This document shows, in pieces, positions 1 to 25,981 of a stretch of 64,000 bases of DNA. Within the stretch, counting starts at the first letter, position 1. Every line of letters begins with the position of its first letter. The position numbers were made by a program, and so were the translations under genes. The DNA lies in the NCBI GenBank assembly GCA_021775555.1, contig JAJFHP010000065.1, positions 1 to 64,000 of the forward strand, read 5' to 3'. This DNA is from Hyphomicrobiales bacterium (lineage in GTDB: Bacteria; Pseudomonadota; Alphaproteobacteria; Rhizobiales; Methyloligellaceae). The notes under the pieces were generated by a model. It was not told the origin of the DNA and did no database searches. It saw only the letters and a list, made by a program, of their open reading frames with translations.

Positions 1-122
1 CAAAGGGAAATTAAAAAATTCGTTATTCCGCTAAATGCGCAAAATTTGCTATGAGCAAAGCTGACGGACGCAAGGCCGCCCGAAGCGGTCTGCTTGATGT
101 GGTTTTAAGTCGGGAGGCAGGC

Positions 123-482
123 ATGGCTTTGCGGGGAACAAAACGGGTTATTGCGGTACTTGCCGCTATTGCACTGGCGGGGATGAGCGGCGGCGCGGGC
201 GCGCAGATGGGCGCGGCGCCCTCAAAGCTCAACTACTCCCCCATCAAGAGATTCACCCTGCCCATCCGCCCTGCGGGCCTGTGGAACAAGCCGAACAAGG
301 CCTGCATGACCAAATGTCAAACGCATGTGCAGAAGGACTGTTTCAGACGCCTTTCGGAGAAATCTCCAGCCGCCGATCCAGCAGCCTTGCAGGAAAAGTG
401 CGACGACCAGTTTTCGCTCTGCCTCTATGACTGTATGTGCGACACCTGCGACGAAAACCAGATCATCATCAAGCAGCAATAA
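123..482 (+). CDS. Small Cys-rich exported protein, unknown function
   Basis: I do not recognise this 119-residue protein. ATG at 123 is preferred over the in-frame ATG at 51 because GGAGG (113-117) lies five bases before it and because the protein then opens with a signal peptide (basic MALRGTKR, hydrophobic core, cleavage near AGAQ). The mature part is short and has nine cysteines. Three are spread over CMTKC and KDC, and the C-terminal cluster has the pattern C-x8-C-x6-C-x3-C-x-C-x2-C. This suggests disulfide bonds in the periplasm or, less likely, metal binding. It is followed convergently by the RidA-like gene 30 bases downstream. Existence of the gene is fairly well supported; function is open. 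Confidence 0.65.
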   Translation: MALRGTKRVIAVLAAIALAGMSGGAGAQMGAAPSKLNYSPIKRFTLPIRPAGLWNKPNKACMTKCQTHVQKDCFRRLSEKSPAADPAALQEKCDDQFSLCLYDCMCDTCDENQIIIKQQ

Positions 483-512
483 CTGCTCGCGCACCAACAG
501 GGCAAACCGGAT

Positions 513-860
513 CTATTTCACGGCAACGACGGCAATCTCGACAAGGATATCGGGACCGGCAAGCTTGGCCTCGATACATGCGCGCGCGGGTAGGTTTTCC
601 CCGCCCGTCCATTGGTTCCAGGCCACGTTCATACCGTCGCGCAGCCGGATGTCCGGCACCCAGATGGTGGCGCTGAGGATTTTTGACTTGTCCGTTCCTG
701 CAAGTGCCAGCAACCTGTCGATTTCAGCCAATACCTGCGCGGTCTGATCCGTGACTCCCAGAGAGAAATCCTCGGCCGTTATACCCGCGGTATAAACCAG
801 TCCGCCGCCTTCAACGACGCAGGACAGGATCTTTCTCGGCTCATGGCGCGTGACACTCAT
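513..860 (-). CDS. RidA/YjgF-family protein
   Basis: This 115-residue protein has the size and pattern of the Rid (YjgF/YER057c/UK114) family: an N-terminal strand with VYTAGIT, a helix region QTAQVLAEIDRLLALAG, the segment SKILSATIWVPDI, and the C-terminal part ARACIEAKLAGPDILVEIAVVAV. Canonical RidA removes reactive enamines and imines made by PLP enzymes, using an Arg near the C-terminal strand. Here the Arg in PARACIEA occupies that area, so deaminase activity is possible but the subgroup is not settled; many Rid relatives do other things. It is transcribed alone on the minus strand. Confidence 0.85.
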   Translation of the reverse strand: MSVTRHEPRKILSCVVEGGGLVYTAGITAEDFSLGVTDQTAQVLAEIDRLLALAGTDKSKILSATIWVPDIRLRDGMNVAWNQWTGGENLPARACIEAKLAGPDILVEIAVVAVK

Positions 861-1144
861 TTATTGGTCCTCTCAAGGTTGGTTTATCATGACGCTGGCG
901 CGGCGATCAGAGGGCAGAATAGTGGACGATCAGGCGGCACGGAAGCCAATATGGCGAACTCGAATCGACCGCGCGCCAATTCGACTCAATTATGACCAAA
1001 TCGTTTACCAGCCATGCACTGTGCGCGGGGCTGTTGTGCACTGCAGCATCTGGTCCTCGCCATGCAGCGGGCCTATGTAGTGAGACAACAATATCGAGCA
1101 GAGGCAATGATGCCCCGCCCCGATTTAGCCAGAGGATATATGAG

Positions 1145-1396
1145 ATGGTACTCGTCAGCTCAATCTTGAATTTCCTGCACCAGGAACGCGAACACCGGGC
1201 CACATGCGATCTGCTCCACGCGATGGACGACCATCGCCTGGCTGATATCGGCATCCGGCGCGACCAGATCGATTCACTCGTTGCGGAGCAGCGCGAAATC
1301 AAACGCAATGCCGCCGCGGCAGAAGCGGAAAACAAGCGCAGCAGCCAAACTCCGGGTGCAGCCCTTGGCGGTCACGGCCTCGCAGCCCAGCACTAA
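1145..1396 (+). CDS. DUF1127-family small protein
   Basis: The 83-residue product carries the DUF1127 (YjiS-like) signature: a helical N-terminus followed by LLHAMDDHRLADIGIRRDQI, matching the family core in which an Arg/Leu-rich helix precedes LxDIGLxRxxI. ATG at 1145 is chosen because AGAGG lies nine bases upstream and because the family is short and starts just before this motif; an upstream in-frame ATG (992) would add 51 residues unlike the family. Some alphaproteobacterial DUF1127 proteins bind RNA and affect phosphate or stress responses; nothing here indicates which. A hairpin with a T-run follows the stop. Confidence 0.75.
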   Translation: MVLVSSILNFLHQEREHRATCDLLHAMDDHRLADIGIRRDQIDSLVAEQREIKRNAAAAEAENKRSSQTPGAALGGHGLAAQH

Positions 1397-1417
1397 ACCA
1401 GATGCTCAACAGAATAC

Positions 1418-1454
1418 CGGTCCGGCGCCCTTCATTGGGTTCCGGGCCGTTTTT
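1418..1454 (+). terminator. Rho-independent terminator after the DUF1127 gene
   Basis: CGGTCCGG (1418-1425) pairs with CCGGGCCG (1442-1449) through one G-U wobble and is followed by five Ts (1450-1454). It lies 22 bases beyond the DUF1127 stop and just before the convergent lipoprotein gene ends at 1476. Confidence 0.7.
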
Positions 1455-1475
1455 GTTTCAGGAAATCAATCTGGA

Positions 1476-2132
1476 TCAGGTGGTCGGCTTGGACAAATTA
1501 TCCAGATCCTTGATGTACCAATCGTCGAGTTTGACCACAGCCGGATTTTCGCCGTTCTCATAAGGCCAGGAATCGACGGCATATTTCACGCCAGTTTCAT
1601 TTTCCTTGAGGATCCCGGTCCAGTGCGGCCAGTTTTTCACACCGCGCCAGATACGCCCCTTTGAAATGGGAATAGCGACCGTGTGCTTCTTGATGAGCCC
1701 TTTGCTATACAGAAACATGAGGTAGCTGGTCGTATTGGTTGCTTCGTCGACACAGTCCATCTGTGTCGGATCACCAGAGCCGCTGTAATCCATGCCCGGT
1801 CTATCGGTCGAGGTGCCGATTCTCTTGCCGACCTCAATCTCCAGCCACGAGATGGCGTAGGCAACCGCACGCCGCTCTTCGTATGGCGTATCCGCCTTCT
1901 TGGTCTTGCGCATCACCGCTGCGAGGGCAGCCACGTCCTTACCTGTTAAGATCACACGCGAGGTCTTCTGGCAGCCATAAGCATGGCAGACCGACACAGC
2001 CTGCTTGCTTGGTTCCTGCACTCCCCAATCGGCCAGATGCCGCTCAGGCGGGCCTGTTCGCTCATAAACGCACGCCGACAGCACTATTGCTGCTGCGGCA
2101 AGGGTAAATGGCACAAGAATTCTGTAGCGCAT
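1476..2132 (-). CDS. Lipoprotein with transglutaminase-like Cys-His-Asp arrangement
   Basis: The 218-residue protein starts with a lipoprotein signal peptide; the lipobox LSAC gives lipidated Cys21. The rest is a single domain with Cys127 in MDCVDEATNTTSYL, His170 in NWPHWTGI and Asp187 in YAVDSWP. That order and spacing (Cys at the start of a helix, His on one strand, Asp on the next) resembles bacterial transglutaminase-like cysteine proteinases and related papain-fold families. The assignment is an inference from these three residues. No neighbour suggests a substrate. It is a monocistronic minus-strand gene convergent with the DUF1127 gene. Confidence 0.7.
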   Translation of the reverse strand: MRYRILVPFTLAAAAIVLSACVYERTGPPERHLADWGVQEPSKQAVSVCHAYGCQKTSRVILTGKDVAALAAVMRKTKKADTPYEERRAVAYAISWLEIEVGKRIGTSTDRPGMDYSGSGDPTQMDCVDEATNTTSYLMFLYSKGLIKKHTVAIPISKGRIWRGVKNWPHWTGILKENETGVKYAVDSWPYENGENPAVVKLDDWYIKDLDNLSKPTT

Positions 2133-2264
2133 CGGCTCCTCAAAAATCTCAGCGCAAATAATGAAATCTCATATTCCGGATTGGCACATCTATAGCAAAT
2201 CACACTTGCGTGGGGGAAGCTGAACGATTGAGAATCGGCTGATTTTTCCTTAGGTTGTCGCATC

Positions 2265-3689
2265 ATGGCCACACATTAAAACGAGCAGCCCATTCTTATC
2301 ATCGGCGGCGGACTGGCCGGGTCCGAAGCGGCTTGGCAAATCGCTGAGACAGGCGTGCCTGTAATTGTCCACGAAATGCGTCCTAAAAGCATGACAGAAG
2401 CTCATAAAACCGCCGGTTTTGCTGAGCTTGTCTGCTCCAATTCCTTCCGTTCAGACGATGCAGAATCGAACGCGGTTGGCCTGTTGCATGAGGAAATGCG
2501 ACGCGCCAATTCGCTGATTATGACCGCGGGCGACGCGCACAAACTGCCCGCAGGCGGAGCGCTCGCGGTCGACCGGGACGGTTTCTCCACCCATGTGACA
2601 AAAACACTCACCTCCCATCCCATGGTGAAGATTGAGCGTGGCGAAATTGCCGGTAAACCGCCAGAAGAGTGGGACAGCGTCATTATTGCCACCGGCCCCC
2701 TCACCTCAAAGGCTCTGGGAGAAGCCGTTCGCAAACTCACAGGTGAAGACGAACTCGCATTCTTCGATGCGATTGCGCCCATTGTCCACAAAGACTCGAT
2801 AGACATGAGCACCTGCTGGTTCCAGTCGCGCTACGACAAGGCAGGGCCTGGCGGCACCGGCGCGGACTATATCAACTGCCCGATGGATGAAGCCCAGTAC
2901 AACGCCTTCATCGATGCGCTGCTTGCTGGAGAGAAAACCGAGTTCCACGAGTGGGAAAAAGACACGCCCTATTTTGAAGGGTGCTTGCCCATCGAGGTCA
3001 TGTCGGAGCGGGGCCGCGAAACCCTGCGCCACGGCCCCATGAAGCCGGTTGGCCTCACAAATCCTCATGCCCCGGACATCAAGGCCCACGCAATTGTGCA
3101 GCTGCGCCAGGACAACGCGCTCGGTACGCTGTGGAACATGGTCGGCTTCCAGACCAAGCTGAAATATGGCGCGCAGAGCGATATCTTCCGCATGATCCCG
3201 GGGCTTGAGAATGCCGTGTTTGCGCGGCTCGGCGGTCTGCACCGCAATACATTCCTGAACAGCCCGAAAGTGCTCGATGAAAGCTTGCGGCTCAGGGCCG
3301 AGCCCAGATTGCGCTTTGCCGGGCAAATTACCGGCGTGGAAGGCTATGTGGAATCAGCGGCCATTGGCCTGCTGACGGGGCGATTCGCGGCGGCGGAGAA
3401 ATTGGGCCTCGCCATCACACCGCCACCTGTAACGACCGCCATGGGAGCGCTAATCAACCACATCACAGGGGGGCATCTGGCCCACGAAGACGATTCCGGC
3501 TCGCGCAGTTTCCAGCCGATGAACGTGAACTTTGGCCTGTTCCCGCCAATTGAGGTCCCAAAACCTACCGACGGAAAACGATTGCGCGGCAAGGAAAAGG
3601 GCCGCGCCCGCAAACGCGCAATGTCCATGCGTGCGCTCGCTGATATTGACGCCTGGCTCGGCAGGGCCGTGAATGTTGCTGCCGAATAA
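2265..3689 (+). CDS. trmFO: TrmFO, tRNA m5U54 methyltransferase, with an in-frame TAA near the start
   Basis: TrmFO uses 5,10-methylenetetrahydrofolate and FADH2 to make m5U54 in the tRNA T-loop. The body is clearly this family: FAD-binding [16 protein letters not shown], the HEMRP segment, then [22 protein letters not shown] with the conserved Cys, and a C-terminal [10 protein letters not shown]. The open frame containing the Rossmann glycines begins at 2280, directly after TAA (2277-2279). The only nearby in-frame ATG is 2265, giving ATG GCC ACA CAT TAA. No ATG, GTG or TTG lies between the TAA and the glycine motif. The first one after it, GTG 2355, would delete the FAD motif. The gene is therefore nonsense-mutated, uses a rare start such as ATT 2292, or carries a sequence error. 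Confidence 0.85.
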
Positions 3690-3713
3690 GTCCTCTTCTC
3701 CTGAACGCGCATC

Positions 3714-4547
3714 TCATGACGCGCGCCATAACTTCCAGAACCGCACCAGCGGATTGATATCGGCAACGTCCTGCAAAGGGCGGTGATTGGAGCTTTCCAG
3801 GACTGTGAGATAGGATTCGACAAGGGCTAGAGGCGCAAAGGCTCGCCGCGCAACAGGATCAAGCTCCGCCATCTGTTGAAAGGCTTCATCACGAGCCGCA
3901 CGCGCTTCCCCAGCAAGCTCAGCCAGAAAAGGTTCGAGCTCACCGCCGCCCTTCCCGGCCAATAGCTGTTCAAGCTGGATGTCGTGCGCATCAAGCATCG
4001 AGAGCGGCAGCATGACCCGGCCCGCCGCCGCATCCCGTGGCAATGCACACATAATTTTGACAAGCCCGTAGGCCAGAGCGGCGGCATTGGCGGCGCGGCC
4101 GGTCCCAGCATTGGCAGCGGCCAGAATGCGCGCGCTGAGGGCAAATGCCGCACCTTCACTCTTGTAGAGATAGGCTTTCAGCGCTTGCAGGTCGGGGAAA
4201 CCCCCGCCATCCAGATCCGCGCTGCGGGCATCTATCATGCCAAGGAGAAGCGGTTTGGGCAGATCGTGGTCGGTAATAGCCATGCCCAGGTCATCGGCTA
4301 GCGGGGCGCCCAGTGTCGTCTTGCCGTCCATGCGTTCCAGCACGTCGCGCCACCATTGCAGGCGAAATTCACCCAGCGCCGGCTCGGTTACCAGATTGGG
4401 GATACGCGCGAGTTCGGCATTGAAGGCGTAGAGCGCCATGAGGCTTTTTCGCACGCGGCGCGGCGCCATAAGCGCTGTTAAATAGCGGTCGGGGTCATGC
4501 GCGCGCACTGTCTCGAAACTGGTTTGAATATCTTCAGGAGTCGTCAT
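3714..4547 (-). CDS. Squalene/phytoene synthase family protein (NDUFAF6-like)
   Basis: This 277-residue protein belongs to the trans-isoprenyl diphosphate synthase-like family that includes squalene and phytoene synthases and the mitochondrial complex I assembly factor NDUFAF6. Recognisable parts are PDRYLTALMAPRRVRKSLMALYAFNAELARI, EFRLQWWRDVLE, LKAYLYKSEGAAF and the late region PRDAAAGRVMLPL. The paired DxxxD motifs of true squalene synthases are not evident, so an assembly or lipid-binding role is more likely than carotenoid or hopanoid synthesis. ATG 4547 is used; an in-frame start at 4568 adds seven residues. It lies directly downstream of the Mth938-like gene in the secDF cluster, and its 3' end meets trmFO convergently. 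Confidence 0.85.
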   Translation of the reverse strand: MTTPEDIQTSFETVRAHDPDRYLTALMAPRRVRKSLMALYAFNAELARIPNLVTEPALGEFRLQWWRDVLERMDGKTTLGAPLADDLGMAITDHDLPKPLLLGMIDARSADLDGGGFPDLQALKAYLYKSEGAAFALSARILAAANAGTGRAANAAALAYGLVKIMCALPRDAAAGRVMLPLSMLDAHDIQLEQLLAGKGGGELEPFLAELAGEARAARDEAFQQMAELDPVARRAFAPLALVESYLTVLESSNHRPLQDVADINPLVRFWKLWRAS

Positions 4548-4577
4548 CTGGCCGGACCCCATTGCCAACCGCGCCGC

Positions 4578-4955
4578 TTATTCAACCGCCAGAAGCGCTG
4601 CCGCGACCGCACGCTCCTCACCCAGCAGCACATTAAAGGTACGGCACGCTGCGCCGGTATCCATAATTTCAAGACCGACGCCTGCCTTTTCAAAGGCTTT
4701 TGAAACTTCAGGCGGCGGTGCAAGCCGCTGTTTACCGGTGCCGAGAAGAAGAAAATCGATTTCCTTCGCTTGCCAGAACACACGCGAAAAAACATCCGGC
4801 ACAAATTCATCCGGCGTGACCGGAGGCCAACCGTAAATGCCGCTCGGCAGAACCAGGAGTGAGCCACGATGGCTCGTCCCGGCAAACCGGAATCCGCTGT
4901 TCCCATAGGCATCGATTGGTGCGCGTTCAGGATAGAACGGGTCTTGACCGCTCAT
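4578..4955 (-). CDS. Mth938/DUF498-domain protein (NDUFAF3-like)
   Basis: The 125-residue protein has the compact Mth938-like fold sequence pattern: IDAYGNSGFRFAG near the start, GSLLVLPSGIYGW, then DFLLLGTGKQRLAPPPEV and IMDTGAACRTFNVLLGEERAVAAALLAV. The family includes human NDUFAF3, a complex I assembly factor. It sits 21 bases downstream of secF and about 30 bases upstream of the squalene-synthase-like gene (NDUFAF6 family), all on the minus strand, so the three are probably co-transcribed. The biochemical role of the bacterial protein is not established; membrane-protein assembly is a reasonable inference from the company it keeps. Confidence 0.9.
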   Translation of the reverse strand: MSGQDPFYPERAPIDAYGNSGFRFAGTSHRGSLLVLPSGIYGWPPVTPDEFVPDVFSRVFWQAKEIDFLLLGTGKQRLAPPPEVSKAFEKAGVGLEIMDTGAACRTFNVLLGEERAVAAALLAVE

Positions 4956-4976
4956 AGGACGCGCGGGCGAGACAAA

Positions 4977-5924
4977 TCATCCACCCCCGGCCGCCGGCTG
5001 TTTGACCTTGGCGCCACCCAGGCCCGACCATTCGCGTTTCACGCCCAGTATGAGCAACAGAGGCGATGCCACGAACACCGAAGAATAGGTGCCGACAAGC
5101 ACGCCCCAGATCATCGCGAAGGTAAAGCCGCGGATCACCTGCCCGCCAAAGATATAGAGCGACAGCAGCGCGACGAGCGTCGTCACGGAGGTCAGAATCG
5201 TTCGCGAAAGCGTGTCGTTGATGGACAGATCGAGCAATTCCGGCAATGGCATTTTCTTGTATTTGCGCAAATTCTCGCGCACCCGGTCAAACACCACCAC
5301 GGTATCGTTCAGCGAGTAGCCGACAATCGTCAAAATGGCGGCGATGATCGACAGGCCGAATTCGAGTTGAAGCAAGCAAAACAGACCGATGGTCAGCACC
5401 ACGTCGTGGACCAGCGCGGCCACCGCGCCGATAGAGAATTGCCATTCGAACCGGAACCAGATGTAAAGCAGCACCGAGAATATGGCGACCAGGACGGCGA
5501 TGGTGCCGGACTGAATAAGCTCGCCCGATACGGTCGGCCCCACCACCTCGACGCGCCGGTAGTCGACGCTGTCGCCGAGAGATTTCTTGACCTTTTTAAT
5601 GGCGTTTTGCTGGTTCTTCTCGCCGCCTTTTTGCTGCTCGATACGGATCAGCACATCGCTGGGCGCGCCGAATTCCTGTATCTGCACTTCACCCACCCCG
5701 ATTTTGCTGAGGCGGGCACGCATGTCAGCCAGCTCAACAGGGCCGCTCTTGTTGCGCACTTCGATCAGAGTACCGCCCTTGAAATCGATGCCGTAATTCA
5801 GGCCGGCGGTCAAAAACAGGCCGATCGACGCCAGTATCAGCAGGCCGGAAACGACGAAGCTGATCATGCGGAACCGGATGAACCGTATCCCGGTGTCGCT
5901 CGGTATAAATCTTATACCCTTCAT
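4977..5924 (-). CDS. secF: SecF, protein translocase accessory subunit
   Basis: SecF pairs with SecD in the inner membrane and uses the proton motive force to help pull preproteins through SecYEG. The 315 residues show the expected layout: a first membrane helix (ISFVVSGLLILASIGLFL), the SecF start motif LNYGIDFKGGTLIEV, a periplasmic loop of about 100 residues, then a five-helix bundle including VALVHDVVLTIGLF, IVGYSLNDTVVVFDRVREN and TRTILTS-type residues (SRTILTSVTTL). Length is normal. It starts 12 bases after secD stops, consistent with one transcript yajC-secD-secF. Confidence 0.97.
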   Translation of the reverse strand: MKGIRFIPSDTGIRFIRFRMISFVVSGLLILASIGLFLTAGLNYGIDFKGGTLIEVRNKSGPVELADMRARLSKIGVGEVQIQEFGAPSDVLIRIEQQKGGEKNQQNAIKKVKKSLGDSVDYRRVEVVGPTVSGELIQSGTIAVLVAIFSVLLYIWFRFEWQFSIGAVAALVHDVVLTIGLFCLLQLEFGLSIIAAILTIVGYSLNDTVVVFDRVRENLRKYKKMPLPELLDLSINDTLSRTILTSVTTLVALLSLYIFGGQVIRGFTFAMIWGVLVGTYSSVFVASPLLLILGVKREWSGLGGAKVKQPAAGGG

Positions 5925-5936
5925 GGATCGGACCCC

Positions 5937-7556
5937 TTAAATCGGCACTTCTTGCGGACGGCGCGATCGCACCCATTGGGCGACCATCAAACGGGTCAGC
6001 GTGAACGCGGTGAAAACGGATGTGATGATGCCGATAGACAAGGTCACGGCAAAGCCGCGGATCGGCCCTGACCCCAGCCAGAACAGCACCATCGCGGCGA
6101 TGAATGTCGTAATGTTGGCGTCAAGGATCGTACCCAGCGCGCGTGAATAGCCTGAATCGATGGCCGCAATGACGGATTTGCCCGCACGCGCCTCCTCGCG
6201 AATACGCTCGAAGATCAGCACATTGGCGTCCACCGCCATACCGATCGTCAGCACGATACCGGCAATGCCCGGCAGGGTGAGCGTCGCCTGGAGCAGGGAA
6301 AGCACGCCGACGATCAGTGCGATATTCACCGCCAGCGCCAGATTGGCGAAAATGCCGAACAGTCCATAAGACACGAGTATGAAGACGACAACCGCAACCA
6401 GCCCAATGAGGGCTGCAATCTTACCAGCGGCGATGGAATCAGCGCCCAAACTCGCGCCAACAGTGCGTTCCTCAAGGATGGTGAGTTTTGCCGGCAGCGC
6501 GCCCGAGCGCAGCAGAACAGACAAATCATTTGCTTGCTGCACGGTGAAATTGCCACTGATCTGGCCGGTGCCGCCCAGGATAGGCTCCCGGATTACCGGG
6601 GCTGAAATCACCTTGTTGTCTAGCACAATGGCGAAGGGCCTGCCGACATTGGCCTGAGTTGCGCGCCCGAAACGCCGGGCGCCAGCTGTGTCGAAACGGA
6701 ATGTCACAACGGGCTCGTTCGTGCGCTGGTCAAAGCCGGGTTGCGCATCTACAAGGCCTTCACCGGTCACGATGGCCCTGGATTTCAACAGATAGGCTGA
6801 TGAGTAACCATCTTCTGACGGCACCAGTTCCGTGCCTGGCGGTGGGCGGCCTGTTTGCTGGGCCTGCTGGACGTCAGAAGTGGTATCGACCATACGAAAC
6901 TCGAGCTTGCCAGTCTCGCCCACAAGCGCCTTGAGCCGGGAAACGTCCTTGATGCCCGGCACCTGGACCAGAATGCGATCCCGCCCCTGACGCTGGATTG
7001 TCGGTTCCGTTGTACCGAACGCGTCAATGCGCCGGCGCACGGTCTCTATCGAGGCCTCGATGGCCGACCCTATACGCTGGAACAGTCCCTGGTCGGTAAT
7101 TTTGAGTGAAATCTGCCCACCATCACCACGGCTGATATCCAGCGTGTTCCCCTGTTGGCCGGTGAAAGCCAGGGACCCGGAAAGCGGGATTGAAAGGTCC
7201 CTCAATCTCGTGAAGGCCTTTTCAACATTCGCCTCATCGCGAATCCGAACACCCACGGTCTTGGTGTTTTGTGAAACACGCAAACCGGAATAACCGATCC
7301 GCTCTTTTCTAAGCACATCACGAACATCACCGCGAACATTCTTGAGCCAGTCCTCAATCAGTTCCTGCTCGTCCATCTGGTAGAGCAGATGCGCTCCGCC
7401 CTGCAAATCGAGACCCAGATTGATCTGCTTGTGAGGGATCCAGCCCGGTAAAGCCTCAAGCGTCTTGGCTGGAAAAATATTGGGCAGTGCCGCAACCAGT
7501 CCGCCCAGTGAAATGAGCAAAACCAGGATGATTTTCCATCTGGCGAAATGAAGCAT
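5937..7556 (-). CDS. secD: SecD, protein translocase accessory subunit
   Basis: The 539-residue protein has one N-terminal membrane helix (IILVLLISLGGLVAAL), the family motif LGLDLQGGAHLLYQMD, a large periplasmic P1 region, the GTGQISGNFT segment, and a C-terminal six-helix bundle with GMAVDANVLIFERIREE, in which the conserved acidic residue takes part in proton movement. Length and motif order are typical for alphaproteobacterial SecD made separately from SecF. It lies 53 bases downstream of yajC and 12 bases upstream of secF. Confidence 0.98.
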   Translation of the reverse strand: MLHFARWKIILVLLISLGGLVAALPNIFPAKTLEALPGWIPHKQINLGLDLQGGAHLLYQMDEQELIEDWLKNVRGDVRDVLRKERIGYSGLRVSQNTKTVGVRIRDEANVEKAFTRLRDLSIPLSGSLAFTGQQGNTLDISRGDGGQISLKITDQGLFQRIGSAIEASIETVRRRIDAFGTTEPTIQRQGRDRILVQVPGIKDVSRLKALVGETGKLEFRMVDTTSDVQQAQQTGRPPPGTELVPSEDGYSSAYLLKSRAIVTGEGLVDAQPGFDQRTNEPVVTFRFDTAGARRFGRATQANVGRPFAIVLDNKVISAPVIREPILGGTGQISGNFTVQQANDLSVLLRSGALPAKLTILEERTVGASLGADSIAAGKIAALIGLVAVVVFILVSYGLFGIFANLALAVNIALIVGVLSLLQATLTLPGIAGIVLTIGMAVDANVLIFERIREEARAGKSVIAAIDSGYSRALGTILDANITTFIAAMVLFWLGSGPIRGFAVTLSIGIITSVFTAFTLTRLMVAQWVRSRRPQEVPI

Positions 7557-7609
7557 GTCTCTATGGCCTCGTCAGGAGGTGATGCGTTCGATGTGGTCGT
7601 CGACCCTGG

Positions 7610-7936
7610 CTACTTCTTGCCGCCAACCGGCTGGTTCTTTGATCTCACATCGGTGATTGTGGAACGGATGACTTTTACCTTCATCCCCTGGGCAAGCTCG
7701 ACCTGAAGTTCATCCTCATCGACCTTCGTGACTTTTCCGATAAGGCCCCCTCCGGTCACCACCGTATCGCCGCGACGCAGCGCCGCGACCATTTCGCGAT
7801 GATTCTTGAGACGTTTCTGCTGGGGCCGGATTATCAGGAAATACATGATCACAAAGATCAGCAGGAACGGCATGATCTGGATAAAAAAGTCTGCGCTTCC
7901 AGCAGCTCCTTGCGCATAGGCAGGTGTGATCAGCAT
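7610..7936 (-). CDS. yajC: YajC, preprotein translocase subunit
   Basis: The 108-residue protein shows YajC features: a short periplasmic N-terminus, one membrane helix (IMPFLLIFVIMYFLIIRP) ending in the family motif RPQQKRLKNH, and a small cytoplasmic domain with GDTVVTGGGLIGKV and a basic tail. YajC associates with SecDF at the Sec translocon. It is the first gene of the minus-strand yajC-secD-secF unit. About 260 bases separate it from the divergent DUF815 ATPase gene, and that gap must hold both promoters. Confidence 0.96.
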   Translation of the reverse strand: MLITPAYAQGAAGSADFFIQIMPFLLIFVIMYFLIIRPQQKRLKNHREMVAALRRGDTVVTGGGLIGKVTKVDEDELQVELAQGMKVKVIRSTITDVRSKNQPVGGKK

Positions 7937-8199
7937 TTTAAACTCCCTTGGTCAGAATTGGCCGGTCATCAGGCCTGGCCGAAACCGTATATTGGCGGAA
8001 CGCGGTGGCCGCACTCAGGCCGGGTGGCGGCGACTATATAGGCGTCGTATTGCATTGCAACCGCTTGCACGGCAACAGTTTAACAGGCTAAGGAGTTTTT
8101 TGGTGCAGATTGACCTGAATTTTACGCTAGCTATGCGTTATCAACCCTTTTGCTGCGCTATACTTTTCAGGCGGGCAAGAAACGGATATCGCTTAAACC

Positions 8200-9090
8200 A
8201 TGAATTTTGAAGAACCCATATCAGCACTGGTCAACCGCATCGCTTCGGCACTGGAACGCATGGCGCCACATGCCGCTCCGCGAATCGATTTTGAGGCCAG
8301 TTCCGCATTCGTCTGGCAGGCAGACCCGGAAGCTTTTCTTCCAGTTGAGCACATCAACCGGATTCCGCTGTCTTTGCTCAAAGGTATCGACCGGATGACG
8401 GATGTACTGCTCGACAATACCGAGCGCTTCGCCAGGGGGCTGCCGGCCAACAATGCCCTTTTGTGGGGTGCGCGTGGCATGGGCAAGTCTTCGCTTGTGA
8501 AAGCAGCACATGCGGAAATCGAGCAGCGGCTTTCAAAGTCAAAAAAATCAAAAGAAAATGATACCGCGCTGAAGCTTGTCGAGATTCACCGTGAGGATAT
8601 TTCATCCCTGCCACAATGCCTGCATCATATTCGCGGCTCGGGTCATTACTTCATCGTCTTTTGCGATGATCTGTCTTTTGATGCGGACGACACCACATAC
8701 AAATCCCTCAAGGCTGTGCTCGAAGGTGGTATTGAGGGGCGACCGAAGAATGTCATCTTTTATGCCACCTCCAACCGCCGCCACTTGATGCCACGCGACA
8801 TGATGGAAAATGAGCGCTCCACCGCCATCAACCCATCCGAGGCCGTTGAAGAAAAGGTTTCACTGTCTGACAGGTTCGGCCTGTGGATCGGTTTCCACAA
8901 ATGCAGCCAGAGTGAATATCTTGAAATGGTTCAAGCTTATGCGGATCACTTTAAGCTCAAAGTGGCAAGAAAAGAGCTGGAACGCGATGCCCTTGAATGG
9001 GCGTCCACACGCGGCAGCCGTTCAGGCCGTGTGGCCTGGCAGTTCATCCAGGATGTCGCCGGGCGGCTTGGCAAACACCTCGACCAATAA
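8200..9090 (+). CDS. DUF815-family AAA ATPase
   Basis: The 296-residue protein has a Walker A motif GARGMGKSS at residues 90-98, a Walker B motif FIVFCDDLSF at 151-160, a sensor-like YATSNRRHL and a later DRFGLWIGF segment, as in the DUF815 ATPases. Its role in the cell is unknown. The gene stays between yajC and the LysM/LytM lipoprotein gene in many rhizobia, which suggests an envelope or export link without proving one. It is transcribed opposite to yajC and convergent with the lipoprotein gene, 13 bases apart. Confidence 0.9.
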   Translation: MNFEEPISALVNRIASALERMAPHAAPRIDFEASSAFVWQADPEAFLPVEHINRIPLSLLKGIDRMTDVLLDNTERFARGLPANNALLWGARGMGKSSLVKAAHAEIEQRLSKSKKSKENDTALKLVEIHREDISSLPQCLHHIRGSGHYFIVFCDDLSFDADDTTYKSLKAVLEGGIEGRPKNVIFYATSNRRHLMPRDMMENERSTAINPSEAVEEKVSLSDRFGLWIGFHKCSQSEYLEMVQAYADHFKLKVARKELERDALEWASTRGSRSGRVAWQFIQDVAGRLGKHLDQ

Positions 9091-9103
9091 CAGCGCCCTG
9101 ATC

Positions 9104-10390
9104 TTAGCTGTTCGCCATATATGACAACGGATTGACAGGCTTGGAGCCTTTGCGCAATTCGAAATGAAGCTGCGGCTGGCTGACATTGCCTGACTGTCCG
9201 GCCTTGCCGATGATCTGCCCGCGACGCACAGTGTCTCCACGCTTGACCAGCAGTTGGTCATTGTGGGCATAGGCCGTCACCCAGTTGTTGGCATGACGGA
9301 TCAGGATCAGATTTCCATATGGCTCAAGCTCGCTGCCGGCATAGGCTACGACACCATTTTCAGCTGCTTTGATGGACGTCCCCTTGGGCACGGCAACATT
9401 GATGCCGTCATTATGCTTGCCGCTCGGACGGGTTCCGAACCCGGCGACAATGCGCCCCTTCACCGGCCAACGGAACTGGTTGCCGGCCATGGGTTCGGGT
9501 TTCGGCAAGCTCTTTGTGCGCGCGGCAACCTTTTGCTGTGGGCGCGAAGAAGCAATGGATGTCTTTGCAGGTGCCTGTGCGACCGGCGCGCTTCGTGCCG
9601 GGTTGATTGCTGGCAAAGGCACACTGGCGCCGCGAGATGCCACGCGAACAGGTGTTGCAGCTTGTGACCCTGTCTGACCAGGAATATTCAACTGCTGGCC
9701 GGGCTGAAGACGATTTGAATTTGCGCCGTTGTTGGCGTTTTGCAGATCTTGCAATGAAATTGAATGTGCCCGTGCGATCTTGGAAAATGAATCGCCCCGC
9801 TTCACGGTATATGTGGACGCTACTGTCTGCGGTGCTGGAGCACCCGCACCAGGAATGGTGAGCTCCTGGCCAATGCTGAGCCTTGTATTTTTCAGATTGC
9901 TGGCAGACTTGATCTGCTCGATGCTCACGTCATTGCGCGCGGCAATCTTGTAGAGCGTATCGCCCTTTTGCACCCTGACGGTCCTGTTGGCCGGTGGTGG
10001 AGGTGCTACCGGCTGCATTTTAATGGGCTGCGTCTTTACCGGACGCGGTGCCTGATATTGCGGCTGAGCCGGGGGCAAAGGCGCGGACTGGATTTGACGA
10101 GGCTGTGCTGCCGCATATTGCTGGTTTTGAGCCGGCGGAAGGTCCTGACGGACAACTGCGGTGCTGTTTCCTGGCGCGCCGTTCTGGTACACCGATTCTG
10201 CCGGAACCGGGTTCAGCGATGACGTAGTGAGGTTGGTATCTCCACTATTATTAGAGAATGTTGGATAATCGAATCGCGAAACACCGCCGCTGCACGCAGC
10301 CAGCATTGCAGCAAGGCCAAGAACAAGACAATTGCCGAATACTGGGCGAATTCCCGACTTCCTCAAAATGGATTCTATAACACCGCTCAT
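9104..10390 (-). CDS. Lipoprotein with two LysM domains and a degenerate LytM (M23) domain, NlpD-like
   Basis: The 428-residue protein has a lipoprotein signal (LAAC, Cys33), a Pro/Gln-rich linker, LysM domains at about 137-181 (VRVQKGDTLYKIA) and 193-238 (YTVKRGDSFSKIA), another linker, and a C-terminal M23 domain from about 313. Zinc-ligand positions are altered: the usual HxGID appears as HNDGIN, and the residue normally His before LHFEL is Gln. This points to an activator of amidases (NlpD/EnvC type) and not an active endopeptidase. It binds peptidoglycan through LysM. It follows the surE-pcm pair, as nlpD does in many proteobacteria, with one small lipoprotein gene between. Confidence 0.9.
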   Translation of the reverse strand: MSGVIESILRKSGIRPVFGNCLVLGLAAMLAACSGGVSRFDYPTFSNNSGDTNLTTSSLNPVPAESVYQNGAPGNSTAVVRQDLPPAQNQQYAAAQPRQIQSAPLPPAQPQYQAPRPVKTQPIKMQPVAPPPPANRTVRVQKGDTLYKIAARNDVSIEQIKSASNLKNTRLSIGQELTIPGAGAPAPQTVASTYTVKRGDSFSKIARAHSISLQDLQNANNGANSNRLQPGQQLNIPGQTGSQAATPVRVASRGASVPLPAINPARSAPVAQAPAKTSIASSRPQQKVAARTKSLPKPEPMAGNQFRWPVKGRIVAGFGTRPSGKHNDGINVAVPKGTSIKAAENGVVAYAGSELEPYGNLILIRHANNWVTAYAHNDQLLVKRGDTVRRGQIIGKAGQSGNVSQPQLHFELRKGSKPVNPLSYMANS

Positions 10391-10540
10391 GATAGGACCC
10401 CTCTTTTCTTATCGAGAGTAAAGCGCCCCACCGGTAAACAACTTGTTAAGGAATGGAATTTCGGCGCAGAAAATCACAAGATCCTGCCAGACGGCATATC
10501 TGGACAATCACGCGTCCTGGCGCAAGATTCACCAGCCAAG

Positions 10541-10783
10541 CTACTGCGTTGCGAGTTTGCCTGACTGCTCCGTAGTCTGATTCTGTTCTGCAGGAATTGA
10601 CGACGTGGTCATCACATCGCTATCGCCCGCCGATTTCTTGGTCAATCCGAACACCGGAAAGCTGAATCCGGTCATGTTCACCGCGCTGCAGCCGGAAATC
10701 ACGAGCGCCATTAACAGCGCTCCGCCAGCCAATAGAGTGCGGGATTTGAGTCGCGAAATGATGTTGTGTTGCGTCACGCGCAT
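10541..10783 (-). CDS. Small lipoprotein, unknown
   Basis: An 80-residue protein with a basic N-terminus (RLKSRT), hydrophobic core (LLAGGALLMALVI) and lipobox ISGC, so it should be lipidated at Cys32. The mature part is about 49 residues and Ser/Thr/Gln-rich with no recognised domain. It shares the motif TTSS(I/L)xP with the mature start of the adjacent LysM lipoprotein, a weak resemblance. It lies between pcm and the LysM/LytM gene in the same direction. A hairpin of 8 bp lies 33 bases upstream of its start (10817-10843). Confidence 0.7.
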   Translation of the reverse strand: MRVTQHNIISRLKSRTLLAGGALLMALVISGCSAVNMTGFSFPVFGLTKKSAGDSDVMTTSSIPAEQNQTTEQSGKLATQ

Positions 10784-10816
10784 CTGTTCTGCCCTCTCTC
10801 TACAGAGAATTTATGT

Positions 10817-10843
10817 GCTTAAGGCGTAAACAAGCCCTTAAGC
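10817..10843 (-). promoter_or_regulatory. Inverted repeat upstream of the small lipoprotein gene
   Basis: GCTTAAGG (10817-10824) and CCTTAAGC (10836-10843) form a perfect 8-bp inverted repeat with an 11-base loop, between pcm and the lipoprotein start. There is no T-run on either side, so it looks more like an operator or leader hairpin than a terminator. No binding protein can be named. Confidence 0.35.
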
Positions 10844-10924
10844 TGCCCGCGACAGATGCACCTTCGCGGAAGATTACGGCGTGAGTATAACGATTTCAGG
10901 ATTTAACGATAAATGAGGCCCGAC

Positions 10925-11566
10925 CTAGCCGCGCTTCACCCGGCCCTTCACGAGCGGCACGAAACGAACAGGCAATAATTCCTTCTGTTCCAGCCCGTCC
11001 ACGGTCTTCTCGATCTGCACAAGCTGTTGCGTTTCGCGCGTTTCCCCCAGCGGAATAACCATGCGCCCCCCTTCTTTCAGCTGATCGAGCAGGGCCTTGG
11101 GCGCTTCAGGTGCTGCTGCGGTCACAATGATGCGGTCATAGGGGGCGTTCGGCGGCCATCCAATCCAGCCATCACCGATGATGGTCGTCACGTTCGATAT
11201 GCCGAGCTTATCAAATTGCTTCAAGGCGCTTTTCTGCAATTCCTTGTAACGCTCTATGGTGAGGACCTCGCGGCACAGATGTGAAAGCACAGCCGCCTGG
11301 TATCCGGACCCGGTGCCGATTTCCAGAACAGTATCGCCTGGCTCAGGTCCGAGGCTCTGCGTCATGAAGGCCACGATATAGGGCTGCGAGATCGTTTGGC
11401 CACAGGCGATTGGCAGCGCTGTGTCAGCATAAGCCTGGTCGATAAAAGCTTCTTCGACAAACTTTTCGCGCGGTACGAGCTCCATGGCCCGCAGCACGCG
11501 CGTGTCATGGATACCATGCTTGCGCAGTTGCATGATGAGGCTGATTTGTTCCAGCGAGCTGCCCAT
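10925..11566 (-). CDS. pcm: Protein-L-isoaspartate O-methyltransferase
   Basis: Pcm methylates L-isoaspartyl residues of aged proteins with S-adenosylmethionine and so starts their repair. The 213-residue length is typical. Visible features are REKFVEEAF, the substrate loop PIACGQTISQPYIVAFMTQSL, and the SAM-binding motif VLEIGTGSGYQAAVL followed by LTIERYKEL. It lies 108 bases downstream of surE on the minus strand; surE-pcm pairing is widespread in proteobacteria. Confidence 0.97.
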   Translation of the reverse strand: MGSSLEQISLIMQLRKHGIHDTRVLRAMELVPREKFVEEAFIDQAYADTALPIACGQTISQPYIVAFMTQSLGPEPGDTVLEIGTGSGYQAAVLSHLCREVLTIERYKELQKSALKQFDKLGISNVTTIIGDGWIGWPPNAPYDRIIVTAAAPEAPKALLDQLKEGGRMVIPLGETRETQQLVQIEKTVDGLEQKELLPVRFVPLVKGRVKRG

Positions 11567-11674
11567 CTTGTACCGTTATGTGCCGAATCACCGCGTCCAG
11601 AGGCGGCGAAATTCTATTATTCCGTGATTCTGGCAGAAGTACCGCCAATTATCTTGGTCGCAGGGGACAAAAAA

Positions 11675-12445
11675 CTATTTGTCCAGCGCTTGGGCGAGTT
11701 CTTTCGCGGCATTGCGGTGGGTCAGGTTCAGATTAAGCGGCGTCACCGAGATGCGGCCGGTATAAATCGCCCAAAGATCCGTGCCCTCTTCCGGAGTGGA
11801 TTTGCCACGCCTGTAGCCCAGCCAGTAATAGGGGTTGCCGCGTGTGTCCATCCGGTCCTCGATAGTGAGCGAATCCTGGTTGCGCCGTCCCTGCTCTGTC
11901 ACCACAACGCCCTCTATGTCATCCGGGTCACGATCAGGAAAATTGACGTTGAGAACAACATCTTGCGGCCATCCGGTATCGAGAAGCTTGCGAATTAAAT
12001 CAGGTGCAAGATCTTTGGGCGTTTGCCATTTCAGTTCCCTGGTTTTGTCCTTATCGAAACTGTAGGCAAGGCTGAGAGCAATCGACGGGATACCCAGCAG
12101 ATTGCCCTCAAAAGCGCCGGCGATTGTGCCGGAATATGTCACGTCATCGGCCATGTTCTGCCCGGCATTCACGCCTGATAGCACCAGGTCCGGCGGATTG
12201 TCCTTCAGCAGGTAACGCACGCCCATGATGATGCAGTCAGTCGGCGTGCCCCTCACCGCGTAAATGCGTTCATCCACCTCGCGCATGCGCATCGGTTCAT
12301 GCAGGGAGAGCGAGTGCGAGGCGCCGCTCTGCTCGGTCTCGGGGCCGATGGTCCACACATCGTCGGATAATTCGCGCGCGACTTGGCGAAGAATGTCGAG
12401 GCCCGGCGCATTGATGCCGTCGTCATTGGTGATGAGAATACGCAT
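11675..12445 (-). CDS. surE: 5'/3'-nucleotidase SurE
   Basis: SurE is a metal-dependent nucleoside monophosphate phosphatase of stationary phase. The 256-residue protein has the family start MRILITNDDGINAPGL with the metal-binding Asp pair, then PETEQSGASHSLSL, RGTPTDCI and LSGVNAGQNMADDVTYSGTIAGAFEG. Length is normal. It begins 12 bases after serS ends, so it is probably co-transcribed with serS, and pcm follows. Confidence 0.97.
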   Translation of the reverse strand: MRILITNDDGINAPGLDILRQVARELSDDVWTIGPETEQSGASHSLSLHEPMRMREVDERIYAVRGTPTDCIIMGVRYLLKDNPPDLVLSGVNAGQNMADDVTYSGTIAGAFEGNLLGIPSIALSLAYSFDKDKTRELKWQTPKDLAPDLIRKLLDTGWPQDVVLNVNFPDRDPDDIEGVVVTEQGRRNQDSLTIEDRMDTRGNPYYWLGYRRGKSTPEEGTDLWAIYTGRISVTPLNLNLTHRNAAKELAQALDK

Positions 12446-12457
12446 GGATTTACAGAC

Positions 12458-13960
12458 CTAACCAGCGGCTATTGTTTCAAGCCCGCCCATATAGGGCCGC
12501 AAGGCTTCGGGCACCGTGATACTTCCGTCATCGTTCTGGTAATTCTCCATGATCGCGATCATGGTTCGCCCGACCGCGAGGCCGGAACCGTTCAGCGTGT
12601 GCACATAGCGAATGTCCTTCGGGTCATCCTTGGCTCTGTAGCGGGCATTCATGCGCCGCGCCTGGAAATCACCGCACACCGAGCAGGATGAGATTTCCCG
12701 GTACATGTCCTGCCCCGGCAACCAGACCTCGATGTCATAGGTCTTGCGCGCACCAAAACCCATATCACCAATGCAGAGCACCACGGTCCTGTATGGCAAT
12801 TCGAGTCGTTTGAGAACTTCCTCAGCGCAGCCTGTCATGCGCTCAAGCTCATCCAGCGATTGGTCCTGTGTGGTGATGGAGACAAGCTCCACTTTGGAGA
12901 ACTGGTGCTGGCGGATCATGCCGCGCGTATCGCGCCCGGCAGACCCTGCTTCAGCCCGGAAGCACGGCGTCCAGGCAGTCATGCGCATGGGGAGATCGCC
13001 TTCCTCAACAATCGACTCGCGCACCATGTTTGTCAGTGGAACTTCCGCTGTAGGGATAAGCCAACGCTTAAAGCCCGAGGTTAAATTGCGAACGGACTCA
13101 CGGTCCTCTTCATCAACACTTTGCTCGATCAGTTTAAGGGATTTATCGATAATGTTCTTGTCGTCATACGTTGCCGCCATAATCAAATCGAACCAAGCCA
13201 GCACACCATATTCGTCTTGGATCTCCGGATATTTCTTGGACAGGCGCTCAAACTCATCCCGATCTAGCTCAAAGCCTTGTACCTGGAACAAATCATCGGC
13301 AAATTTAGGTAATTGTCCCGTGCCATACATGGTTTCGTCCCACACTATCGCAGGCGGCAGCATTTCCTGATAACCGCCAAGACCGTCTTTTTCCGGCCCC
13401 GTATGTATATCGAGCATGAAGGCAGCAATAGCCCGCTCCATCCGCGCCAGAGCACCCTTGAGTACCACGAAGCGCGCGCCCGACAACTTGGCCGCTGTAT
13501 CGAAATCCATCAGGCCAAGGTCTTCACCAAGCTCGAAATGCTGCTTGGGCGAGAAAGAAAGGGACGGTTTTTCGCCCCAAGTCCGCACTTCGATATTGTC
13601 GCTTTCATCTTCGCCGGCAGGCACATCATCGAGCGGCGCGTTGGGCAAAGTTGAAAGCGCCTCGCGAAGCCGCGCATCGATTTCGCGTTGTTGTTCCTCG
13701 CCGGATTGAATGGTCGATTTGGCTTGCGCAACCTCGTCCATCAGCTTCTGCGCCGCGGCCTCGTCGCCAGACGCTTTCGCCTTGCCGATTTCTTTTGATG
13801 CCGAATTACGCTTGGTCTGCGCGTCCTGAAGCGTCTGGATCAGGGTGCGGCGTTCTTCATCAATCTTGAGAATGTCAGCCGAATGAGGCGCGAGACCCCG
13901 CCTCGCTAGCGCGGCGTCGAAGGCGTCGGAATTATCGCGAATCCATTTGATATCGTACAC
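12458..13960 (-). CDS. serS: Seryl-tRNA synthetase with an internal insertion
   Basis: SerS charges tRNA-Ser. The N-terminal coiled-coil arm spans about residues 30-105, followed by the class II core: [36 protein letters not shown], motif 2 [21 protein letters not shown], and motif 3 with [18 protein letters not shown]. The protein is 500 residues, about 70 more than the usual 420-435. The excess lies between ADDLFQV (about 227) and RWLIPTAEV (about 300), roughly bases 13070-13280, where relatives have only a short connector. By hand count this part is about 45% G+C, against 57-62% in two flanking 60-base blocks. The frame is intact and all catalytic motifs are kept. Confidence 0.96.
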
Positions 13961-14065
13961 GGGAGATGGCTCCGGAGATGAGAATCAAGCGGATGAAGCC
14001 GCTGGCCCACCTATACACGCGGGTGCGGGTTAGCGTCCAGAGAAGGAAATGTGACCAGACAATAA

Positions 14066-14896
14066 CTAGACAGCCTCTTCGGCTTCGTCATCATCCTTGT
14101 CATCGCCCTCTTCACTACCCTCTCTGCGTTTCTTCTCAACCAGTTGCACCGAGAGGATAGAAAGCTCGTATAGCAGCAGCGTCGGTAGGGCGAGGCCAAT
14201 CTGGCTGATAGGATCAGGCGGTGTGAGGAACGCGGCCACGGCAAAGGTCCCGACAATGGCGTATTTGCGCTTGGCCCTCAGGCCATCGGCGGTGGCCAGA
14301 CCCGCACGCGCCAGCAAGGTTAGCAGCACCGGCAACTGGAAGCAGATACCGAATGCCAGGATAAGCGTCATGACGAGGCCGAGATATTCGCTCACCCGCG
14401 CGGTCAGCTGGATTTGCACCTGGCTGTCGCCGGTCTGCTGCAAGGACAGGAAAAATGTCATTGCAAGCGGCATGACCACGTAATAGACGAGCGACCCGCC
14501 AAGAATAAAAAGAACGGGAGTTGCCACAAGGAAGGGCAGAAATGCAGACTTTTCGTTCTGGTACAAACCCGGCGCCACGAACATGTAGATCTGCGTGGCC
14601 AGCACGGGAAAAGCCAGGAAGATTGCGCCGAACAGCGACAGTTTGAGCTGGGTGAAAAAGAACTCCTGCGGCGCGGTGTAGATCATCTCGATACGGGTAT
14701 CGCCACCTACCGCTTGCTTATAGGGGTAGAGCAGGATGTTGTAGATGTCGCTGGCAAAGAAAAAACACAGCAGGAAGCCCGCGAAGATCGCTGCCATGGT
14801 CCACATCAGCCGCGTGCGCAGCTCAACCAGATGCTCGATTAACGGCGCCTTGGTGGACTCAAAGTCTTCCTGGGTTTCACTCTGTATTTCGCTCAC
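14066..14896 (-). CDS. tatC: TatC, twin-arginine translocase subunit
   Basis: TatC is the six-helix receptor for twin-arginine signal peptides. The 276-residue protein has the family features: LIEHLVELRTRLMW at the N-terminus, the periplasmic FFFTQLKLSLFGAIFLAFPV region, YQNEKSAFLPF with its conserved Glu, and FGICFQLPVLLTLL. The C-terminus is extended by an acidic Glu/Asp tail. It starts directly after the tatB stop codon, in a tatA-tatB-tatC order on the minus strand. Confidence 0.97.
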   Translation of the reverse strand: MSEIQSETQEDFESTKAPLIEHLVELRTRLMWTMAAIFAGFLLCFFFASDIYNILLYPYKQAVGGDTRIEMIYTAPQEFFFTQLKLSLFGAIFLAFPVLATQIYMFVAPGLYQNEKSAFLPFLVATPVLFILGGSLVYYVVMPLAMTFFLSLQQTGDSQVQIQLTARVSEYLGLVMTLILAFGICFQLPVLLTLLARAGLATADGLRAKRKYAIVGTFAVAAFLTPPDPISQIGLALPTLLLYELSILSVQLVEKKRREGSEEGDDKDDDEAEEAV

Positions 14897-15346
14897 CTAG
14901 CCCTGGCCTCCGCTCTCGTCTGCCGATGCCTCTTCCTTTGGCTTTGGCTTTGGCTTTGGCTTTGGCTTTGGCTTGGATTTGGCAGCCGTCTTTTTCTTCG
15001 GAGCAAGCTTTTCAGGCTCATCATCACCAGCTGCCTGGGGGGCCTCAATGCTACCCTTGATACTGTCGGCAGTCTCTTTCAACGGCGCCATGCTCTCGGT
15101 GACAGAATCCTTGATCTGATTGAGCGGATTTAAATCCGACGCATCGCTCAGCGTGGAGCGTAACTCATCGAGTTCGCTTTCGCGGATCGCATCGTCGAAC
15201 TGCGAGCGGAACTCGCCCGCGGTACGCTTCAACTGGCCGGCATAACGGCCAAGCGAGCGCAGCATGCGCGGCAAATCCTTCGGGCCGACGACAATAATCG
15301 CAACCACGGCAATAACCAGGATTTCAGTCCAACCGATATCGAACAT
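14897..15346 (-). CDS. tatB: TatB, twin-arginine translocase subunit
   Basis: TatB forms the Tat receptor complex with TatC. The 149-residue protein has the short N-terminal helix MFDIGWTEILVIAVVAIIV, the hinge GPKDLPRMLRSLGR, an amphipathic helix and a long charged tail. The tail contains a Lys-Pro dipeptide run encoded by a six-base tandem repeat. The TatB stop and the TatC start are adjacent, which suggests coupled translation. Confidence 0.96.
   Translation of the reverse strand: MFDIGWTEILVIAVVAIIVVGPKDLPRMLRSLGRYAGQLKRTAGEFRSQFDDAIRESELDELRSTLSDASDLNPLNQIKDSVTESMAPLKETADSIKGSIEAPQAAGDDEPEKLAPKKKTAAKSKPKPKPKPKPKPKEEASADESGGQG
14936..14971. repeat. Six tandem copies of CTTTGG inside tatB
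   Basis: Six perfect copies of the hexamer CTTTGG (read on the plus strand) encode the Lys-Pro run in the TatB tail. The unit is a multiple of three, so copy-number change would lengthen or shorten the tail without shifting the frame. Confidence 0.9.
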
Positions 15347-15440
15347 GGAACGCCTGCCGTCTTCGGGCTAGCCCAAGGTGCGTGTGTAATGAGACGGAAT
15401 GTCAAAAGGTCATACCGCCAGCACATTGGCTGGCTAACGC

Positions 15441-15677
15441 CTAGCTTGCTTTGGCTTTGCTGCCGCTCGTCGATTTCGCCGACTTGGCTGTTTCAGCCTC
15501 GTCATGCTCGATCGATTTAACAGTCTCGGAATCTTCAGATTCGTCTTCTGCTATGCCCTTTTTAAAGCTCTTGATGCCTTTTGCGACATCGCCCATAAGG
15601 TCGGAAATCTTGCCGCGTCCGAACAAAAGCACGAGCAAAACAATAACTATGAGAATTTGAAACCAACTCGGTGCCAT
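15441..15677 (-). CDS. tatA: TatA, twin-arginine translocase subunit
   Basis: TatA is the pore-forming Tat component. The 78-residue protein has a single N-terminal helix ([20 protein letters not shown]), the FGRGKI hinge, the amphipathic helix [19 protein letters not shown] and an acidic then Lys/Ser-rich tail. It is the first of tatA-tatB-tatC on the minus strand, with 94 bases to tatB. Confidence 0.96.
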
Positions 15678-15800
15678 TTTGATATTTTCTCCTTCTGGGC
15701 AGCAATGCTGCCTGATCTGTTCCGCACTATTGCAGAAAGGCCTGACCCCCGCAACACGCTGAGACTGGGCAAAGTTAAGGCTCTTACCGATGAGCTGTTT

Positions 15801-16940
15801 TCAGACGCCCGGCTTGTCGTCAGATGCGGCGGCAAACACCAGAATTTCCTCCGGGTTCACCTTTACACCTACATCCGATCCTGCCTGTTTTGCCCGTGAT
15901 TCCCGTATCCGTGCAAAAAGCGGTTCTTCCAGTCCATCAACGCCGATTTCCAGTAAGGCGCTTTCACCGAGAAAACGGGTGTTCAACACGCGTCCTGCCC
16001 GGCCCTTGCCAACAGGAACAAGTTGAACGTCGCGCTGTCGGATGCAGGCAACAGCATTGCCATTTTTAATTCCCTTGGCCGAGCATTTTCCAAATAGCGT
16101 ATCTGCTATTGAGCTCTTAACGACCACAGGAACTTCGTTTATATCCGAGAACATGCGCGCCGCGTTGATATCCGCAGGTGCATGATAAATCTCCTCCGCC
16201 GTGCCCGTCTGCAGCAACCGTCCTTCGCGCATCAGTGCAATACGGTTGCTCATGCGCATGGCTTCTTCGCAGGAATGGGTCACCAGAATGCAGGTGGCTC
16301 TTGTTTCTTTGAGAATCGCGAGCGTTTCCTCACGCATCTCATCGCGCAATTGCATATCGAGACCGGAAAAGGGCTCATCCATCATCAACACGCCGGGCCT
16401 TGGCGAGATCGCACGCGCCAGCGCCACACGCTGCTGTTCTCCGCCCGACAAGATATGCGGATATTCATCGGCATATTTCGCGAGCCCCACACGTTCAAGC
16501 GCCGATTGGGCGATCTTGCGGGCGTCCTCGCGCGCCATGTCCTTTAACCCGAAGGCAGCATTTTCCAGCAATGTCAGATGTGGAAACAGGGCAAAATCCT
16601 GGAACATGAGCCCGACGCCACGACGCTCAGGGGGGACATGTATCTCGGGTCCAGCGACTTCCCTATCATTGATCAGTATGCGCCCGCCGGTTGGGCGCTC
16701 CAGCCCTGCTGTCAGACGCAATAGCGTGGTCTTCCCACAACCCGAAGGCCCCAGCAGGCAGACAATTTCGCCAGGTTCAATATCCAGGGAGACACCGCGA
16801 ACTGCATGAACGGTACCAAAGCGGCGCTGAACATCATCGAATGTCAGGCGCGCAGCAAAGGTCGCGGCGGCGGAGCCGCGCGTTCCCCACCTGGCAGCGG
16901 ATGGCTGCTGACGGCGTTTGGATGTTTGACCGAATAACAC
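15801..16940 (-). CDS. Orphan ABC transporter ATPase, FbpC/PotA type
   Basis: The 379-residue protein is an importer-type ATPase: Walker A LGPSGCGKTT, Q-loop MFQDFALFPHLT, signature LSGGEQQRVALARA, Walker B VLMMDEPFSGLD, H-loop ILVTHS, then a C-terminal TOBE-like domain (VLNTRFLGESALLEIGV). This is the architecture of iron(III), spermidine or sulfate/molybdate importers. No permease or binding protein is nearby, so the substrate is unknown. The first 30 residues before LTFDDVQRRFG are low in complexity and may be untranslated. It sits between scpB and tatA, which are neighbours in many rhizobia, so it looks like an insertion into that order. Confidence 0.9.
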   Translation of the reverse strand: MLFGQTSKRRQQPSAARWGTRGSAAATFAARLTFDDVQRRFGTVHAVRGVSLDIEPGEIVCLLGPSGCGKTTLLRLTAGLERPTGGRILINDREVAGPEIHVPPERRGVGLMFQDFALFPHLTLLENAAFGLKDMAREDARKIAQSALERVGLAKYADEYPHILSGGEQQRVALARAISPRPGVLMMDEPFSGLDMQLRDEMREETLAILKETRATCILVTHSCEEAMRMSNRIALMREGRLLQTGTAEEIYHAPADINAARMFSDINEVPVVVKSSIADTLFGKCSAKGIKNGNAVACIRQRDVQLVPVGKGRAGRVLNTRFLGESALLEIGVDGLEEPLFARIRESRAKQAGSDVGVKVNPEEILVFAAASDDKPGV

Positions 16941-17004
16941 GGCGCCTGTTTACGCGACCCGGGGCGCCGGTTGCAAGCCTGAGAGGGTTAACGCTTCCCG
17001 CAGA

Positions 17005-18692: not shown

Positions 18693-18711
18693 TGCGTCTT
18701 TCCATACTGCC

Positions 18712-19761: not shown

Positions 19762-19788
19762 GTAGAGCCATAGAGTTGTGCGCAGAAG

Positions 19789-25972: not shown

Positions 25973-25981
25973 TTACAATCT

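Follow-up and report, generated by a model that had tools for sequence, protein, structure and literature searches.

The trmFO gene on the forward strand of the window (the whole 64,000-nucleotide stretch of DNA analysed here) carries an in-frame TAA at its fifth codon (2277–2279), and we lean, with some reserve, towards the view that an ordinary and very recent nonsense substitution has inactivated this copy. Direct reading of the 5′ end gives ATG at 2265, followed by GCC, ACA, CAT and then TAA, just as the original prediction had reported. That prediction set four options side by side without ranking them: recent inactivation, an error in the base, initiation at an ATT or ATC codon, and readthrough of the stop. 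Our analysis favors recent inactivation because the stop at codon 5 involves no indel, the frame behind it shows no relaxation of selection, and canonical starts lie at least six codons ahead of the FAD-binding motif in the relatives seen; a base error ranks second, and both the ATT/ATC start and readthrough rank low.

The frame that follows the stop is that of TrmFO, the folate/FAD-dependent tRNA (uracil-54-C5)-methyltransferase. It comprises 469 sense codons (2280–3686) and is closed by the natural stop TAA at 3687–3689, and the claim that these codons are intact and well conserved held up on direct reading and translation and in profile searches, in which the frame scored far above the TrmFO cut-offs (669.6 bits against NCBIfam NF003739, cut-off 262; 540.2 bits against TIGR00137, cut-off 428.65). 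The best solved relative is PDB 3g5q (E 4.3e-121), which we take to be the TrmFO of Thermus, and the Pfam GIDA family (PF01134) matches with 317.5 bits. The FAD-binding Rossmann motif GGGLAG, an N-terminal GxGxxG, is present at 2304–2321, as are both ELVCSNSFR and EGCLPIE, which presumably hold the counterparts of C53 and C226, the catalytic cysteines of the B. subtilis enzyme. What the gene lacks is an uninterrupted frame from a start codon, as TAA stands at codon 5 and no canonical start follows it before the motif.

Comparison within the genus suggests that the ATG at 2265–2267 is the native start of trmFO. Six genus copies besides that of the window have a 5′ end available for comparison, namely those of G001, G002, G004, G006 and G007 and a second copy on contig C25 of the window's own assembly; in addition, G003 contributes only a partial trmFO and G005 none. 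In five of the six (C25, G001, G004, G006 and G007) an ATG with GCC ACA directly behind it stands 13 codons ahead of GGG, which matches the arrangement at 2265, and in the window AGGT lies 9 bases upstream of the ATG. The N-terminal alignment revealed no indel between the window and these five copies, and this colinearity rules out compensating frameshifts or an indel. Codon 5 in the five copies is GCA, CCT, CCC, TCA or TCG, encoding Ala, Pro, Pro, Ser and Ser; the TAA thus took the place of a sense codon that varies among the copies, close behind the start, and relative to these intact orthologues it is a disabling stop. The comparison of the N-terminus with close relatives, proposed as a check in the original prediction, thus supports both ATG 2265 and a sense codon at position 5. 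The further suggestion that a one-base change would restore Lys is correct for the codon as such, yet Lys occurs in none of the five copies, which have Ala, Pro or Ser at this place. The trmFO of G002 (L006, G002:C65) has an N-terminus and upstream sequence unlike those of the other genus copies, and there the closest ATG precedes the motif by 7 codons.

We then estimated selection on the gene using codon models of six taxa, from which the stop column was excluded and which, like the six-taxon tree, leave G002 aside. The window branch has a dN/dS of 0.063 compared with 0.065 elsewhere (p 0.9), and the relaxed selection typical of a nonsense pseudogene is therefore not seen in this gene, as expected if the stop is very recent. 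The 95% upper limit for the window branch, interpolated from the likelihood profile, is ~0.105; by arithmetic on this limit, neutral decay would be allowed over at most ~4% of the branch, a bound that is rough because only six taxa were used and synonymous change is near saturation. A conserved remainder evolving at this rate implies a stop that arose very recently, is bypassed in some way or is an artefact. Two residues in the window copy are unusual: CTT (Leu) at 2295–2297, where nearly all compared TrmFO sequences have His (His 96, Tyr 1 and, in the window, Leu 1 of 98 aligned; in a second count, His 97, Tyr 1 and Leu 1 of 99), and TCG (Ser) at 3003–3005, a position occupied by Ala in 97 of 98 aligned sequences. 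Both fall at columns that are at least 97% conserved in an alignment of 98 loci (13 of 111 were left out because a long frame bearing the expected motifs was absent). At such columns none of the eight closest relatives listed shows any change, but two to four changes occur in 15 of the 97 other aligned loci, these being more distant ones. The two residues may point weakly to incipient decay, or to sequence errors.

Comparison across the order indicates that trmFO can be lost in nature, though such loss is uncommon. Judged by eye from the best E value of each genome, a strong TrmFO match (E 1e-98 or better) is present in 285 of the 297 genomes of the order, and three of the 12 without one are at least 90% complete (G010, G173 and G254); an automatic tally arrives at 294 of 297, but it takes in weak matches as well, presumably MnmG, and does not give the number of genomes with trmFO. 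No TrmFO scored above the cut-off in G010 (same family, 97% complete) or in G254 (same order, 100% complete). G010 retains a squalene-synthase-like gene and secF, and a different frame adjoins the former on the side where the window has trmFO; this frame (L142 2–1336, reverse strand; G010:C76) is long, resembles a membrane protein by eye and is cut by the contig end. G005 likewise has no TrmFO above the cut-off but was rejected as a case of loss, as nothing in this 85%-complete genome matches the initial 14 kb of the window; because its assembly is without the whole region, it is uninformative on loss. TrmA was considered as a backup and rejected, as the window's own genome offers only matches below the cut-off (53.2 and 28.7 bits against 334.65), and none above the cut-off was found in the five relatives tested. 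Published reports describe a Thermus trmFO deletion strain that grows at 80 °C (PMC6418473) and one Brucella strain with a frameshifted trmFO (PMC11073494), the latter given no weight here.

The assembly that contains the window is a draft of 76 contigs and 3.54 Mb (completeness 97.54, contamination 2.72), and it seems to include sequence of a second species. Contig C25 (L033, G000:C25:1–10930; 10.9 kb) bears an intact second trmFO with 80% DNA and 87% protein identity to the window copy, of which it is the sister in the six-taxon tree. The two contigs are collinear over ~7.6 kb, from ridA to secD, and the duplicated block (ridA, lipoprotein, trmFO, SQS, DUF498, secF, secD) is 80% identical between them. 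The lipoprotein-like protein near trmFO, encoded at 1476–2132 on the reverse strand of the window, is conserved in the genus and has no Pfam match at E 0.001. Among the genes of C25 further out in its flank, one adjoins the block in all four genus members compared, and two others are present in one and in none of these four. C25 is most likely, judging by its sequence, a contig of a contaminating sister species.

Several routes by which the cell might still obtain a working enzyme, or by which the stop might be illusory, have to be weighed against the nonsense mutation. A codon listing bore out the claim that no in-frame ATG, GTG or TTG exists between TAA 2277 and the GGG of the motif at 2304. 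Past the stop, the next canonical start in this frame is GTG at 2355–2357, and a functional restart at a later canonical codon was rejected, since starting there loses the FAD motif. The near-start codons ATT 2292, ATC 2298 and ATC 2301 (2292–2303) are weak candidates, with upstream Shine-Dalgarno matches no longer than 3 bases. Translation from ATT 2292 or from an ATC just after it would give a slightly shorter working TrmFO and would be compatible with the retained FAD motif, the undiminished purifying selection and the position of the unusual Leu codon at 2295, which adjoins such a start; AUU is known as a rare start codon in bacteria, as in infC. Such a start is nevertheless improbable, and more so in the fuller form in which initiation has moved downstream behind a four-codon leader with constraint kept. 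The survey of starts covered 111 loci including the window, and all 98 of the other loci that contain the strict motif (12 of the 110 others are without it) have an in-frame ATG, GTG or TTG at least 6 codons ahead of it, whereas ATT 2292 would keep only 4 residues before GGG. The nearest of these starts lies 6 to 16 codons before the motif, and several loci additionally carry a GTG 1–5 codons before it. Ten of the 12 loci that lack this strict form were examined with a slightly different motif and each has a start, which makes the window the sole start-less locus among those covered by the two surveys (all but L080 and L088); one set of comparison loci comprised 80 of the 592 loci found. The first residue from ATT would also probably fall within the first beta strand, and the best Shine-Dalgarno match that is suitably spaced is the 3-base GAG; because C25, whose start is intact, has the same GAG, the window has made no gain in this respect. 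Readthrough of the TAA at a rate sufficient for the supply of TrmFO is more doubtful still. The undiminished constraint is the sole point in its favor; bacterial readthrough of UAA is generally low, and TAA is a normal stop in the window, given that it ends 19 of the 48 open reading frames longer than 450 bases that were mechanically kept, and trmFO itself. A reassigned TAA was rejected on the same grounds, as TAA is common as a stop here.

The main rival is an error of the consensus or of the assembly, or else a variant from a minority strain, in a draft that mixes related organisms, such that the real trmFO is intact; we regard this as a real but distinctly lesser possibility. It draws on the fragmentation and contamination of the draft, on the presence of C25 as a contig resembling that of a sister species, on the full constraint across the rest of the frame, and on the occurrence of two odd codons inside 21 bases (2277–2297). 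Against this, the stop lies 2.3 kb into the contig, away from its very edge (the window starts at C62:1), and consists of a substitution without an indel. The six neighbors of trmFO (ridA, the lipoprotein gene, squalene synthase, DUF498, secF and secD) are all open in the window and have alignments to relatives that span the greater part or the whole of each gene (ridA has no match in G007), and this part of the window is therefore not generally error-ridden. A noisy scan for disrupted frames, in which stop-to-stop open reading frames of five loci (L033–L037) were compared with the window span 72–13642, reported many stops, which we attribute for the most part to shadow frames or to frames that extend beyond the ends of genes. 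In four of six queries inspected the stop stood at the alignment end; in the two matching 8008–9081 (forward strand) the first stop was near the upstream end, and all four stops found there must lie before 8200, because the window's open reading frame at 8200–9090 is open in that frame. Another scenario, which is compatible with the nonsense mutation, places the intact C25 copy in the same genome, where it would make the window copy redundant. C25 is indeed part of the same assembly and its trmFO groups as sister to that of the window, and the duplication is not assembly-wide, as no second copy of the first 3.36 kb of C25 was found within the assembly and window positions 7600–27500 have only two short matches (~81 and ~44 bases) to the rest of it. 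We consider this unlikely, however, as the divergence is species-like: identity over joined codons is 0.811 for C25 and the window, compared with 0.796 for G001 and G004 and 0.850 for G006 and G007. The entire block from ridA to secD is collinear, with the adjoining flank gene shared by the four genus members described above, the six other genus genomes with a match carry one TrmFO each, and GC3 is 0.673 versus 0.641 in the comparison of C25 with the window.

Taken together, the stop looks like the product of a very recent, ordinary mutation that inactivates the gene, or else of faulty sequencing, rather than a novel way of making TrmFO. Under the recent nonsense mutation that we favor, translation would initiate at ATG 2265, yield Met-Ala-Thr-His and terminate at the TAA. 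Functional TrmFO would then be absent from the window copy, because no in-frame canonical start precedes the FAD-binding motif, and U54 of tRNA would be left unmethylated if the cell has no other trmFO copy. We infer that the base at the stop is real, that the window copy has no product and that the C25 copy comes from another organism. The draft state of the 76-contig assembly and its apparent admixture of a second species, the lack of a TrmA above the cut-off, the lack of relaxed selection and the rarity of trmFO loss in the order all count against this reading. If the stop is real, the lineage has been caught just as it loses a widespread tRNA methylation at T54, with no TrmA above the cut-off as a replacement; if it is an error, the case serves as a warning about single stops in draft assemblies. 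Current ideas are unchanged either way.

Compared with known systems, the 469 codons of the window align over nearly the whole TrmFO model, but unlike NF003739, TIGR00137 and 3g5q the window gene has TAA at codon 5 and Leu in place of a near-invariant His before the FAD motif. A disrupted trmFO also occurs in G014, a member of the same family, where the gene lies in two parts in two frames (G014:C1:547461–548824, split at about 1480–1530 of L129); unlike the nonsense codon of the window, this disruption is a mid-gene frame change, and it represents either an independent frameshift or an assembly error. The window gene further resembles the trmFO pseudogene of Spiroplasma citri, in which, according to the published report, a single lineage has an inactivated gene that is retained by some of its relatives, and m5U54 is absent (PMC7226160). 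In that mollicute the absence of m5U54 was measured, whereas the window, whose host is no mollicute, is known from its sequence alone.
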